From an uncultured Gemmiger sp. (GTDB taxonomy: Bacteria > Bacillota > Clostridia > Oscillospirales > Ruminococcaceae): a stretch of DNA of 64,000 nucleotides. The notes under the pieces were generated by a model that saw nothing but the letters and a program-made list of their open reading frames with translations, was not told where the DNA came from and did not search any database. A program made the translations under genes and the position numbers. The stretch is taken from NCBI GenBank assembly GCA_947631565.1, contig CANRLV010000003.1, positions 1 through 64,000 of the forward strand, written 5' to 3'. Positions 93 through 8,721 of the stretch are shown in pieces. The number at the start of each line of letters is the position of its first letter. Positions within the stretch are counted from its first letter, which is position 1.

Positions 93-1277
93 TTACAGTT
101 GGTAGGTGATCTTCCCGGCCTTGACGGTGGTCACGACGCGGCCATAGAGCTTTTCGCCGTCAAAGGGAGTGTTCTTGCTCTTGCTGTGCAGGGCGGCGGC
201 GTCCACCGTCCAGAGGGCGTCCAAATCGACGAGCACGAGGTCGGCGTCAAAGCCGGGGGCGAGCTGGCCCTTGCGGTCGTCGAGCCCCAGCACCTGCGCG
301 GGGCCGCTGCTCATCAGAAAGCTCAGGTGTTCAAGCGGCAGGCCCTCCATGCGGCAGAGCCTGGTATAGCAGGCGGCAAAGGCCGTCTCCAGCCCCACCA
401 TGCCGGCCGCGCCGTGGGCCTTCTCCTCGGCCGTGTGGGGGGCGTGGTCGGTGCCGATGCAGCTGACCGTTCCGTCTTTGATGGCCGCGACCAGCGCTGC
501 CACGTCCGCCGCCTTGCGGATGGGCGGGTTGACCTTGTATTGCAGGCGGCTGTCGTCGAACCACAGGTGGTGGGGCGTGACCTCGGCGCTCACGCGCGCG
601 CCGCGGCGGCGGCTCTGGCGCACCATATCGGCGGCCTCGGCCGTGGAGACATGGCACATATGCAGCCGTGTGCCGTAGTACTCGGCCAGGTGGCAGTTGC
701 GCGCCGTCTCGATGTTCTCGGCCAGGCGGTAGTCCCACGGCGATATCTCGCGGTCCTCGGCGTGGGACAGTACGGTCAGCCCGCGCTCGGCGGCGATGGC
801 AAAGGCGCGCGCCATAACGGCGTTGTCCATGACGCCGTTGCCGTCCTCGGTGATGAATTTGACGTCCCCCGGCAATGCCAGCAGATGGTCCAGCGTCTTG
901 CCGTCAAAATCCTTGGTGATGGAGACGGTCTGGTTGGCGTCGCACAGGCCGATCTCCTTGGCCTTATTTTGCACGGCATGGGCGATGTCGGCCGAGGAGC
1001 AGATCGGCTTCGTGTTGGGCATCAGGTTGACGAAGGTGTACCCGCCGGCGGCGGCCGCCGCGCTGCCGGTGGCGATATCCTCTTTGTACTCAAGGCCCGG
1101 CGTGCGCCAGTGGCAGTGCGTGTCGATAAAGGCGGGCAGCACGGTCAGGCCGCGGGCGTCGAGCACCTGCTCCCCCGCCGGTACCGGCAGCCCGGTGCCG
1201 AGGGCCTTGATCCTGCCCTCCGCCAGCCAGAGATCACACACGCGGCCGGTACAGTCGCGGGCGCCCGTGATGAGCAT
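93..1277 (-). CDS. pyrC: dihydroorotase
   Basis: MLITGARDCTGRVCDLWLAEG...LPAFIDTHCHWRTPG...SHAEDREISPW...CIGTDHAPHT; the ORF track start (1931) is too far upstream; ATG 1277 preceded by GGAGGGTGTT. Confidence 0.93.
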   Translation of the reverse strand: MLITGARDCTGRVCDLWLAEGRIKALGTGLPVPAGEQVLDARGLTVLPAFIDTHCHWRTPGLEYKEDIATGSAAAAAGGYTFVNLMPNTKPICSSADIAHAVQNKAKEIGLCDANQTVSITKDFDGKTLDHLLALPGDVKFITEDGNGVMDNAVMARAFAIAAERGLTVLSHAEDREISPWDYRLAENIETARNCHLAEYYGTRLHMCHVSTAEAADMVRQSRRRGARVSAEVTPHHLWFDDSRLQYKVNPPIRKAADVAALVAAIKDGTVSCIGTDHAPHTAEEKAHGAAGMVGLETAFAACYTRLCRMEGLPLEHLSFLMSSGPAQVLGLDDRKGQLAPGFDADLVLVDLDALWTVDAAALHSKSKNTPFDGEKLYGRVVTTVKAGKITYQL

Positions 1278-1297
1278 ACAACACCCTCCTTTTGGGT

Positions 1298-1327
1298 AAA
1301 AAAAAACTTTTCCCCGTAAGGAAAAGT
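1298..1327 (-). terminator. intrinsic terminator / attenuator in pyrC leader
   Basis: Minus strand ACTTTTCC-TTACGG-GGAAAAGT followed by nine T, immediately 5' of the pyrC RBS. Confidence 0.8.
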
Positions 1328-1410
1328 CAAAACGCAGCGGCCAAAGCCGGCAAAAAAAGAAACAACGCGCCTGACCCGTCCGCCTTGTGCTGTACGCCAA
1401 ACGGTGCCAT
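1327..1410 (-). CDS. putative pyr leader peptide MAPFGVQHKADGSGALFLFLPALAAAF
   Basis: ATG about 20 nt after predicted TSS with GGGGG SD; stop TGA overlaps the first base of the attenuator stem. Confidence 0.5.
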   Translation of the reverse strand: MAPFGVQHKADGSGALFLFLPALAAAF

Positions 1411-1437
1411 GCAGCGCGCCCCCTTTTTGTTTTGTCT

Positions 1438-1466
1438 ATTGTACCATGCCGGGCGGGCGGTGTCAA
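1438..1466 (-). promoter_or_regulatory. sigma-A promoter for pyrC-pyrF
   Basis: Minus strand TTGACA-17 bp-TACAAT. Confidence 0.8.
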
Positions 1467-1641: not shown

Positions 1642-2289
1642 ATGGGCCTTTGGGAAGACGCCAAAAACATCCGCGATAAGGACCCCGCCGCGCGCAACGT
1701 GGCCGAGGTCATGCTCCTGTACCCCGGGTTCCATGTGCTGGTCACCCATCGCATCGCCCACTTTTTGTATAAGCACCGTTGGTTTTTCTGCGCGCGGCTC
1801 ATCAGCCAGCTGTCCCGCCATTTCACCGGCATCGAGATCCACCCCGGCGCCACCATCGGCCGCAAGCTGTTCATCGACCACGGCATGGGCATCGTCTTTG
1901 GTGAAACGACCGAGATCGGCGACAACTGCACGATCTACCACGGCGTGACGCTGGGCGGCACCGGCAAGGACACCGGCAAGCGCCACCCGACGCTTGGCAA
2001 CAACGTGCTGATCGGGGCCGGGGCCAAGGTGCTGGGGCCCGTGTACATCGGCGACAATGTGCGCGTGGGCGCCGGCAGCGTGGTGCTGCATAACCTGCCG
2101 GCCAACTCAACGGCCGTCGGCGTGCCGGCCGAGGTCGTGCGCGTCAACGACGTCAAGGTCAACCCGGCCGACGACCTCGACCAGCAGGACCTGCCGGACG
2201 CCACCAACCAGCGCATCGCCCGGCTGGAGGCCCAGCTCAGCCGGCTGGAAGCAAAGATACAGGGGGAATATCCCCCCGACAAGGAGTAA
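1642..2289 (+). CDS. cysE: serine O-acetyltransferase
   Basis: MGLWEDAKNIRDKDPAARN...HPGATIGRKLFIDHGMGIVFGETTEIGDNCTIYHGVTLGGTGKD; left-handed beta-helix hexapeptide repeats. Confidence 0.92.
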   Translation: MGLWEDAKNIRDKDPAARNVAEVMLLYPGFHVLVTHRIAHFLYKHRWFFCARLISQLSRHFTGIEIHPGATIGRKLFIDHGMGIVFGETTEIGDNCTIYHGVTLGGTGKDTGKRHPTLGNNVLIGAGAKVLGPVYIGDNVRVGAGSVVLHNLPANSTAVGVPAEVVRVNDVKVNPADDLDQQDLPDATNQRIARLEAQLSRLEAKIQGEYPPDKE

Positions 2290-6135: not shown

Positions 6136-6172
6136 GCCCTGCCGGAAAATCTGCCCGGCAGGGCGTTTTTTG
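6136..6172 (+). terminator. htpG intrinsic terminator
   Basis: CCCTGCCGG-loop-CCGGCAGGG then cgTTTTTT. Confidence 0.8.
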
Positions 6173-6231
6173 TGGCATTCCGGACCGAATTGTGCTATGC
6201 TGGAAGCAGCCGTAGAAAAAGGAGTGGGACC

Positions 6232-8721
6232 ATGGCCGAGCAAACCGAAAACACGCTGCCGCAGGACGCCGGCGAGGAGACCTTTGTCTACATAGACCCG
6301 CAGGCCATCGAACGGCTGGGCCGGCTGGGCCGGGCCGCCGCCGGGCGTGAGGACGCCCACCGCGCGCTGCTGGCCCGCGCCGAGGACGGGGATCTCGACG
6401 CCATGTTGGGCCTTGCGCAGGACTACCAGACCGGCAGCGGCACCGCGCGCGACGAGCACGAGGCCTTTTTGTGGCTGACGCGCGCCGCCGACGGCGGGCA
6501 CCTGGCGGCCCGGCACGAGCTGGCGATGTGCTGGCTGACCGGCACCGGCACCGACAAGGACCCCGCCCGCGGCGCGGCCCTGCTGGCCGAGAACGCCGAG
6601 GAGGGCGTGCTCGCCTCGGTGTGTATGCTGGGCGTCTGCTATGAGTTCGGCGACGGCGTGCCCGAGGACAAGGGGCGCGCCGTGACCCTGTACGCCGAGG
6701 CCGCGCAGCAGGGCTTTGCCCGCGCCCAGTGTAACCTAGGCATATGCTGTTACCACGGCATCGGCACGGCGCGGGACCCGGCGGCCGCCGTGCGCTGGTT
6801 CACGCTGGCGGCGCGGCAGGGCCATCCCCGCGCCCAGGTGCTGCTGGGCGTCTGTTACGAGAACGGCTACGGCGTGGAAAAGGACGCCGCCAAGGCCGTC
6901 GCCTGCTACCGCGCCGCGCGCGAGCGGGGCTACGTCGACGCTTCCTGCGCGCTGGGTGTGTGCTACTATAACGGCATCGGCGTGAATCGGGACCTTGCCA
7001 GGGCCGCCGCCCTGTATGAGGAGGGCGCCCGCCGCGGCGACGCCCGCGCCGCCCTGCTGGCCGGCGAATGCTATGAGCACGGCGACGGCGTGGACGCTGA
7101 CCCCGTGCAGGCGGCGGCGATGTACACGCTGGCGCACGAGCACGGCAGCGCCGCCGGCTCCTGCGCGCTGGGTGTGTGCTATGAGTTCGGCACCGGCGTG
7201 GAGACGGACAAGGCCCGCGCCGCCGAGCTGTATCGCGCGGGGGCCGAACGGGGCAACGCGGCCGCACAGTGCAACCTGGGCTTTTGCTATCTGCAGGGCA
7301 TCGGCGTGGCGCGCGACCCGGCGAAAGCCATCCCGTGGCTCGAGAAAGCCGCCGGGCAGCACTATCCGCGCGCGATGGGCCTGCTGGGGGACTGTTATTC
7401 CTACGGCCGCGGTACGGCGCAGGACCACGCCAGGGCCGCCGAGCTGTACACGGCCGCCCACAACCTGGGCTACCCGAACGCGACCTGCTCGCTGGGGTTG
7501 TGCTACGAGATGGGCCACGGCGTGCCGATGAACAAGCAGCGCGCCGCCGAGCTGTACCGCGCGGCCGCCGAACAGGGGCTGGCGCAGGCGCAGTGCAACC
7601 TTGGGTTTTTCTATTACCTGGGCATCGGCGTAAAGGAAGACAACGCCGAGGCCTTCCGCTGGTTCAGCAAGGCTGCCGCGCAAAACTACCCGCGCGCGCA
7701 GTTTTTTGCCGGCGAATGCTATGAGCTTGGCTATGGCGTAGAAAAGGATGTTGGCAAGGCCTTCCAATACTACACCGCCGCCCACGAGGGCGGCTACCGT
7801 GACGCCGCCTGCGCGCTGGGGCTCTGCTATGAGACGGGCGAGGGCGTGGCGATGGACAAAGCGAAAGCCGTCGAGCTGTACCGCGAGGGCGCCCGTGCCG
7901 GGCACGAGCGCGCCCAGTGCAACCTGGCCTTTTGCTACCTGCAGGGCATCGGCACCGAGCGCGACGCCAAACGGGCGGTGCGCTGGCTGCGGCAGGCCGC
8001 CGAGGGCGGCAGCAGCCGCGCCATGTGCCTGCTGGGCGAATGCTACGAGGACGGCACCGGCGTGGAGCGCGACTACGCGCTGGCGGCCGAGAACTACCGG
8101 GCGGCGGAAAAGGCCGGCAACGCCCGCGGCGCCTGTCTGCTGGGGCTGTGCTATGAAATGGGCCGCGGCGTCGGGAAAGACACCTTAAAGGCCGTAGAGC
8201 TCTACCACAAGGCGGCCGAGCAGGGCCTGGCGATGGCGCAGTGCAACCTGGGTTACTGCTTTTACGCGGGCATCGGCGCGGCGCAGGATTACGGCCAGGC
8301 GGTGCGCTGGTTCCGCAAGGCTGCCGAGCAGGGCCAGCCGCGCGGGCAATTTTTGCTGGGGCAATGCCTTGAAAACGGCAGCGGCTGTGTGGCCGCCCCC
8401 GCCGCCGCGGCCGAATGGTACCGCAAGGCCGCCGAAAAGGGCTACAGCCCCGCCCAGTGCGCGCTGGGCGAGCTGTACGCAGCCGGGCAGGGCGTCGGCA
8501 AGGACCCGGCTGCCGCGGTCGAATGGTACCAAAAAGCCGCCGACCGCGGAGACGGGCGTGCGCTCTGGCTGCTGGCCGGCTGCTATGAGCACGGTGCCGG
8601 CGCCCCGCGCGACAAAAAGAAGGCGCTGGCGCTCTACCGGAAAGCGGCCGACGCCGGCTATGAAAAGGCCGGGAGCGATGTAAAACGGCTGCAAAAGAAG
8701 TCCTGGTTTTTACCGAACTGA
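6232..8721 (+). CDS. giant Sel1-like (SLR/TPR) repeat protein, 829 aa
   Basis: About 20 repeats of ~36 aa of type 'AQCNLGFCYLQGIGVARDPAKAIPWLEKAAGQHYPRA'; no signal peptide seen; RBS ggagtgg upstream of ATG 6232. Confidence 0.92.
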   Translation: MAEQTENTLPQDAGEETFVYIDPQAIERLGRLGRAAAGREDAHRALLARAEDGDLDAMLGLAQDYQTGSGTARDEHEAFLWLTRAADGGHLAARHELAMCWLTGTGTDKDPARGAALLAENAEEGVLASVCMLGVCYEFGDGVPEDKGRAVTLYAEAAQQGFARAQCNLGICCYHGIGTARDPAAAVRWFTLAARQGHPRAQVLLGVCYENGYGVEKDAAKAVACYRAARERGYVDASCALGVCYYNGIGVNRDLARAAALYEEGARRGDARAALLAGECYEHGDGVDADPVQAAAMYTLAHEHGSAAGSCALGVCYEFGTGVETDKARAAELYRAGAERGNAAAQCNLGFCYLQGIGVARDPAKAIPWLEKAAGQHYPRAMGLLGDCYSYGRGTAQDHARAAELYTAAHNLGYPNATCSLGLCYEMGHGVPMNKQRAAELYRAAAEQGLAQAQCNLGFFYYLGIGVKEDNAEAFRWFSKAAAQNYPRAQFFAGECYELGYGVEKDVGKAFQYYTAAHEGGYRDAACALGLCYETGEGVAMDKAKAVELYREGARAGHERAQCNLAFCYLQGIGTERDAKRAVRWLRQAAEGGSSRAMCLLGECYEDGTGVERDYALAAENYRAAEKAGNARGACLLGLCYEMGRGVGKDTLKAVELYHKAAEQGLAMAQCNLGYCFYAGIGAAQDYGQAVRWFRKAAEQGQPRGQFLLGQCLENGSGCVAAPAAAAEWYRKAAEKGYSPAQCALGELYAAGQGVGKDPAAAVEWYQKAADRGDGRALWLLAGCYEHGAGAPRDKKKALALYRKAADAGYEKAGSDVKRLQKKSWFLPN

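Follow-up and report, generated by a model that had tools for sequence, protein, structure and literature searches.

The DNA analysed here (the window) is a stretch of 64,000 nucleotides from a genome that the preliminary description had called Firmicute-like and that can be assigned more exactly to Gemmiger, since the nearest named relatives of its PyrC are those of Gemmiger species. pyrC, encoding a dihydroorotase of 394 aa (TIGR00857, over cut-off), occupies 93..1277 on the minus strand, with its start at ATG1277 and a Shine-Dalgarno (SD) sequence, AGGAGG, at 1285..1290 (minus strand). The gene is situated at the contig end, and the window extends just 92 bases past it. Of the pyrC-pyrF pair originally named, pyrC is present as a dihydroorotase gene and pyrF is not found in the window; pyrF does follow pyrC in Gemmiger formicilis ATCC 27749 (L113), where the gene order is pyrC, pyrF, pyrK, pyrD. 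Adjoining the pyrC promoter is a divergent gene (1642-2289, plus strand) for a hexapeptide-repeat acyltransferase (PF00132), serine O-acetyltransferase-like, and the acyltransferase gene neighbours pyrC in G. formicilis too (L113 1316-1966, minus strand). Elsewhere in the window, 6172-8721 on the plus strand encodes an 849-aa protein with many Sel1-like short repeats, as judged by eye.

The features upstream of pyrC all lie on the minus strand. A sigma-A-type promoter (1438..1466) consists of TTGACA (1466-1461), a 17-nt spacer and an extended -10 element, TACAAT (1443-1438); it has 11 of 12 consensus matches, is the sole promoter-like site in 4 kb, where shuffled sequence yields 0.5, and is kept in relatives, and from its position transcription of the pyrC leader would start at about 1431. 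The leader SD, GGGGG (1423-1419), is contained in CAAAAAGGGGGCGCGCTGC (1411..1429), the predicted 5' arm of an SD-masking stem, and is followed by a leader ORF, MAPFGVQHKADGSGALFLFLPALAAAF (1327..1410), which runs for 27 codons from ATG1410 and ends with the stop codon TGA (1329-1327). Inside this ORF a U-rich run, TTGTTTCTTTTTTTG (1365-1351), falls within a U-rich tract, GCGCGTTGTTTCTTTTTTTG (1351..1370), which is the putative 3' arm of the same stem (an anti-SD) and likely the UTP-sensitive stretch. An intrinsic terminator (1298..1328), with stem GACTTTTCCT/GGGGAAAAGTT (1328-1305, 10 pairs) and a T-run, is located 50 bases upstream of the pyrC start and opens with the last bases of the leader stop codon. 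The promoter, leader SD, leader ORF and U-rich run agree base for base with the preliminary description, as does the overlap between TGA and the start of the terminator.

When relatives were checked, the leader ORF, its U-richness and the terminator all proved to be conserved. Every one of the 31 Gemmiger leaders examined has a leader ORF of 25-29 codons with an ATG or GTG start (stop codons TGA in 29, TAG in 1 and TAA in 1), and in all 31 the stop codon lies directly against, or overlaps, the beginning of the terminator stem ahead of pyrC. A search for the exact pattern of terminator plus stop found it once per genome in 27 of 35 Gemmiger genomes and 0 times with a reversed-pattern control; the matches listed coincide with pyrC upstream positions located independently, and the genomes without an exact match include ones with an altered stop codon or stem. 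These comparisons indicate that a real, conserved attenuator lies upstream of pyrC in Gemmiger. In two of the leader loci, L029 and L113 (G. formicilis ATCC 27749), a MITE-like insertion of ~130 bp, whose ends are inverted repeats (GTAGGGGCGAGCATTGCTCGCCC ... GGGCGAACAATGTTCGCCCCTAC), is found between the leader terminator and pyrC, leaving leader and terminator intact.

The same system is present across about 20 genera, a breadth that had been missed earlier: 22 more leaders, belonging to about 20 sister genera, follow this plan before pyrC or pyrB, and at the pyrB-first loci pyrB carries what looks by eye like a PyrI-like zinc-binding tail. Open frame, start, SD and stop are conserved in the 53 leaders (31 Gemmiger and 22 others), which vary by whole-codon lengths, in their stop codons (TGA, TAG or TAA) and in their peptides, the last being wholly different between genera; shuffles put the probability that the frame is open by chance in all 20 lineages at about 4e-10. 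Gemmiger pyrB forms a separate locus, with no such leader upstream. The gene order in two PyrC relatives from another family of the order (L214 and L215) is pyrB-pyrI-pyrC; a leader was not apparent in the short stretch of L214 that was covered, and the L215 sequence begins within pyrB.

In Gemmiger the stop codon of the leader ORF falls on the beginning of the stem, in contrast to the ORF of E. coli pyrL, which extends through the terminator, a difference that the preliminary description had not recognized. In the leaders dissected from outside Gemmiger the stop is usually at the stem as well, but it is in the loop in L090 and L092 and about 10 nt ahead of the stem in L087, and in L095 and L096 the leader ORF passes through the terminator, like E. 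coli pyrL; about 20 natural versions of a single switch are thus available, which differ in whether the stop codon precedes the terminator, lies within it or lies past it. For comparison, ordinary terminators were surveyed with a simple home-made scan in 400 kb of a complete Gemmiger genome plus the window: they start a median of 16 nt past the stop codon and only 2 of 82 overlap it, so the geometry of the leader is unusual.

U content was assessed by comparing leaders with synonymous recodings that use each genome's own pyrC codon usage. By this measure leader U is enriched (mean z +4.1 in Gemmiger and +3.75 in other genera) and leader C is depleted (z -3.2 and -2.75, respectively), A and G being near 0, whereas the z for U in pyrC controls (5' end and middle) is 0.3-0.8. 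Phe codons tell the same story, with a TTT:TTC count of 164:56 in leaders as compared to 256:253 in pyrC. Three leaders are exceptions without U excess: L083, L016 and L094, the last of which has almost no U-run and retains the anti-SD. In the window species, LFLFLP replaces the Phe-Phe of its relatives and the U-run is longer, so it seems to be the nucleotide, not the amino acid, that is kept in the leader tract. Nor does base pairing explain the enrichment, since U pairs less strongly than C with a G-rich SD. The synonymous U enrichment is as one would expect if UTP is sensed.

When leader RNAs are folded, the SD pairs with an element within the ORF, which in Gemmiger is for the most part the U-rich tract. 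The median SD-to-ORF pairing is 0.83 in leaders as compared to 0.16 for the pyrC ribosome-binding site, and in the fold of the window leader the SD is unpaired at 0.02 and paired to the ORF at 0.98. RNAalifold, applied to a start-anchored Gemmiger alignment, did not recover the SD stem in the main subgroup, where it gave a weak competing local hairpin (GGTG..CACC); we think that the alignment missed the stem because SD spacing and register vary, and for this reason a register-free arm-swap test was used, in which the SD arm of one genus is set against the ORF arm of another. Cognate SD and ORF arms pair better than swapped ones (z -5.4 to -6.1; 0 of 5000 permutations as good, p<1/5000), while z is +0.2 to -2.7 for dinucleotide-shuffled arms and 0 to -1.4 for stretches next to the arms; the weaker signal in these controls means that base composition accounts for part, not most, of the covariation. 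Across genera, then, the sequences of the two arms of the SD-masking stem covary. Clear examples are L083 (GAAAGGAGAACAAA with TTTGTTCTTCTTTC, 14 bp), L094, L095 and L096. The SD/anti-SD pair of the window is among the weaker ones: in the window species, pairing between U-run and SD is mostly wobble, and duplexes with swapped arms are at least as good as the cognate one. For the window species and several others, synonymous shuffles form equally good or better pairings; because the peptide itself already dictates much of the pairing, synonymous shuffles alone do not prove it. The U-rich tract likely doubles as an anti-SD covering the ribosome-binding site of the leader itself, a role missed in the preliminary description and one that would likely shift the decision point to ribosome loading. 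Two leaders upstream of pyrB, L088 and L091, are apparently arranged differently from the others: in L091 a long hairpin sits right on top of a purine-rich site that resembles a ribosome-binding site (GGACAGGAGGGAAAAACAAAACC GGG TTTTGTTCTTCCTTTTCTTTTGTCC), L088 being similar, and this is apparently a different arrangement of the SD/anti-SD idea.

PyrR-dependent attenuation (RF00515), typical of Bacillota, is likewise transcription attenuation of pyr genes, but the leader-bearing genomes scanned have neither PyrR over cut-off nor the RNA element. The NCBIfam PyrR model found nothing over cut-off in this genome (G000, 89% complete) or in a congener (G054, 98%), both of which gave weak phosphoribosyltransferase matches only, the best in G000 being HPRT-like; RF00515 had no match in G000, in G054 or in the window, where the Rfam scan as a whole returned no match. 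The absence of a PyrR element noted in the preliminary description holds for both genomes, and the absence of pyrR over cut-off and of RF00515 speaks against a PyrR-regulated attenuator. In a sample of 101 genomes of this GTDB family, PyrR is over cut-off in 47 and the PyrR RNA element is present in 37, RF00515 matches being confined to other genera of the family, and related genera that retain pyrR do carry the element; neither was found in any of the genomes with leader-type PyrC, of which the sample includes 16 outside Gemmiger. Because leader-bearing genomes form one clade, the absence of PyrR and the presence of the leader are to be read as an association, not as many independent events. 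Roughly one in three of the 101 genomes (e.g., G007, G011 and G014) lacks PyrR over cut-off and carries a PyrC other than the leader type. The leader could be a pyrimidine control route for a large group of gut Oscillospirales that lack PyrR.

We consider it probable, judging from the sequence, that the transcription attenuator preceding pyrC is of the pyrBI type and that the start of its leader is masked. The conserved ORF and terminator, the lack of PyrR and the synonymous enrichment of U at the expense of C support the pyrBI-style reading of the preliminary description, to which the second role of the U-rich tract, as anti-SD, is likely to be added. Transcription from near 1431 would expose the leader SD; about 50-75 nt downstream, the U-rich tract, once transcribed, would hide the complementary SD, and a ribosome would have to load before this anti-SD is made. 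When UTP is low, polymerase would be slow in the U-rich leader and the ribosome would load, whereas under plentiful UTP a fast polymerase would leave the SD masked and the leader untranslated. A ribosome at the stop codon would then, by analogy with E. coli work, cover the 5' arm of the terminator and permit readthrough into pyrC(FKD); without a ribosome, the terminator would fold and transcription would end, so that the default state would be pyrC off and the outcome UTP feedback control without PyrR. In E. coli, termination falls from about 90% to <10%, in a translation-dependent manner, when a stop codon is placed 5 bp away from the terminator (PMC4824070). In B. subtilis, transcription outruns translation (PMC7858274), which would count against any model that puts a ribosome at the terminator; if this were so in Gemmiger, a model in which a ribosome catches up to the terminator would be strained, but a race for loading would, as we argue, still work, and loading-based sensing, if true, would let the design operate wherever transcription outruns translation. 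A literature search, covering few subscription papers, found no published experiment on the Gemmiger pyrC leader.

Alternatively, the leader could act by classical pyrBI coupling only, in which polymerase, pausing in the U-rich leader, is caught up by a ribosome that has already initiated and that then blocks the terminator, and the pairing between SD and U-tract would be a by-product of one being purine-rich and the other pyrimidine-rich. Such coupling is well established in E. coli (PMC10135430) and would account for the U enrichment, for the geometry of stop and terminator, and for synonymous shuffles that pair equally well or better in the window species and several others. We nonetheless find it unlikely as the full explanation: pairing is cognate-specific over 20 genera, the signal in shuffled and positional controls being much weaker or absent, it outreaches the SD core (as in L083, with 14 bp, L094, L095 and L096), and it survives loss of the U-run in L094. 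A more distant candidate, and one that we regard as improbable, is that the SD-masking stem is itself the sensor, a metabolite or an RNA-binding protein other than PyrR stabilising it and turning leader translation off. A long, conserved masking stem whose closed form means OFF would suit such a sensor, but the loop and inner parts are unconserved between genera, stem register and length vary, the window has no Rfam match, and the synonymous U enrichment would be left unexplained.

The conservation of V-F-F-P in most Gemmiger leaders could suggest nascent-peptide or amino-acid attenuation, with this motif stalling ribosomes or sensing charged tRNA-Phe. This is very improbable, as the peptides differ wholly between genera, the LFLFLP of the window partly replaces Phe while raising U content, and Phe supply is unlinked to pyrimidine genes; a search for the traits of amino-acid attenuators revealed no codon run conserved across genera and no alternative antiterminator hairpin, the terminator and the SD stem being the only structures seen. 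Although bacteria with runaway transcription can put terminators right behind stop codons (PMC7858274), the view that this is simply the terminator of some short upstream transcript or non-functional ORF, with no part in regulation, is hardly credible given the leader's own promoter, the conserved ORF, the single copy per Gemmiger genome before pyrC, and the greater distance of ordinary Gemmiger-genome terminators from their stops.

The masked-start attenuator of Gemmiger resembles the E. coli pyrBI leader pyrL in its short leader ORF with a U-rich coding run, in the intrinsic terminator that precedes a pyr operon, and in that a ribosome is predicted to block the terminator; it differs in its gene, which here is pyrC (pyrC-F-K-D), and the peptides read ...GLPFFFPL... 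in E. coli pyrL as compared to ...AVFFP... in Gemmiger or LFLFLP in the window. The SD of E. coli pyrL is also predicted to pair with its own U-run, UUUCUUCCCG (0.99), although this is a single-sequence fold, whereas the stem described here covaries across genera. We raise, tentatively, the possibility that in pyrBI-type attenuators in general, including E. coli pyrL, the U-run both slows polymerase at low UTP and acts as an anti-SD, such that sensing would take place at ribosome loading, not at elongation catch-up. Adding a masked start to the textbook mechanism makes the catch-up race model newly testable, in E. coli as well. The E. coli pyrE attenuator (rph-pyrE) is also similar in that the stop codon of an upstream frame adjoins the terminator stem, but that frame is a full gene, rph, and the Gemmiger frame is a 27-codon leader.

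In Bacillota, leader-peptide attenuation has been thought rare; histidine leader peptides before hisS/hisZ in bacilli were reported in 2010 as the first regular leader-peptide attenuation outside Proteobacteria and Actinobacteria (PMC2965389). Those peptides sense amino-acid codons, not a nucleotide, and the pyrC leader would place a nucleotide-sensing leader peptide in this phylum. Membership in PF08052 (PyrBI_leader) was considered and rejected: the leaders of the window, L095, L096, L019 and L082 had no match at E<=10, as compared to 3e-34 for E. coli PyrL, and PF08052 had no match in the Gammaproteobacteria sample searched for Enterobacterales pyrL. The L095 leader (G089), which runs through its terminator, ends in ...NRGVFFLPAARR and a stop, and E. 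coli pyrL ends in ...NRGAFFCPGVRR and a stop. The likeness of these peptide ends (...QLPCFNRGVFFLPAARR in L095 and ...QPLNRGAFFCPGVRR in E. coli pyrL, L100 283-417, each followed by the stop) could be due to convergence, arising from a translated terminator and T-run, or to common descent.
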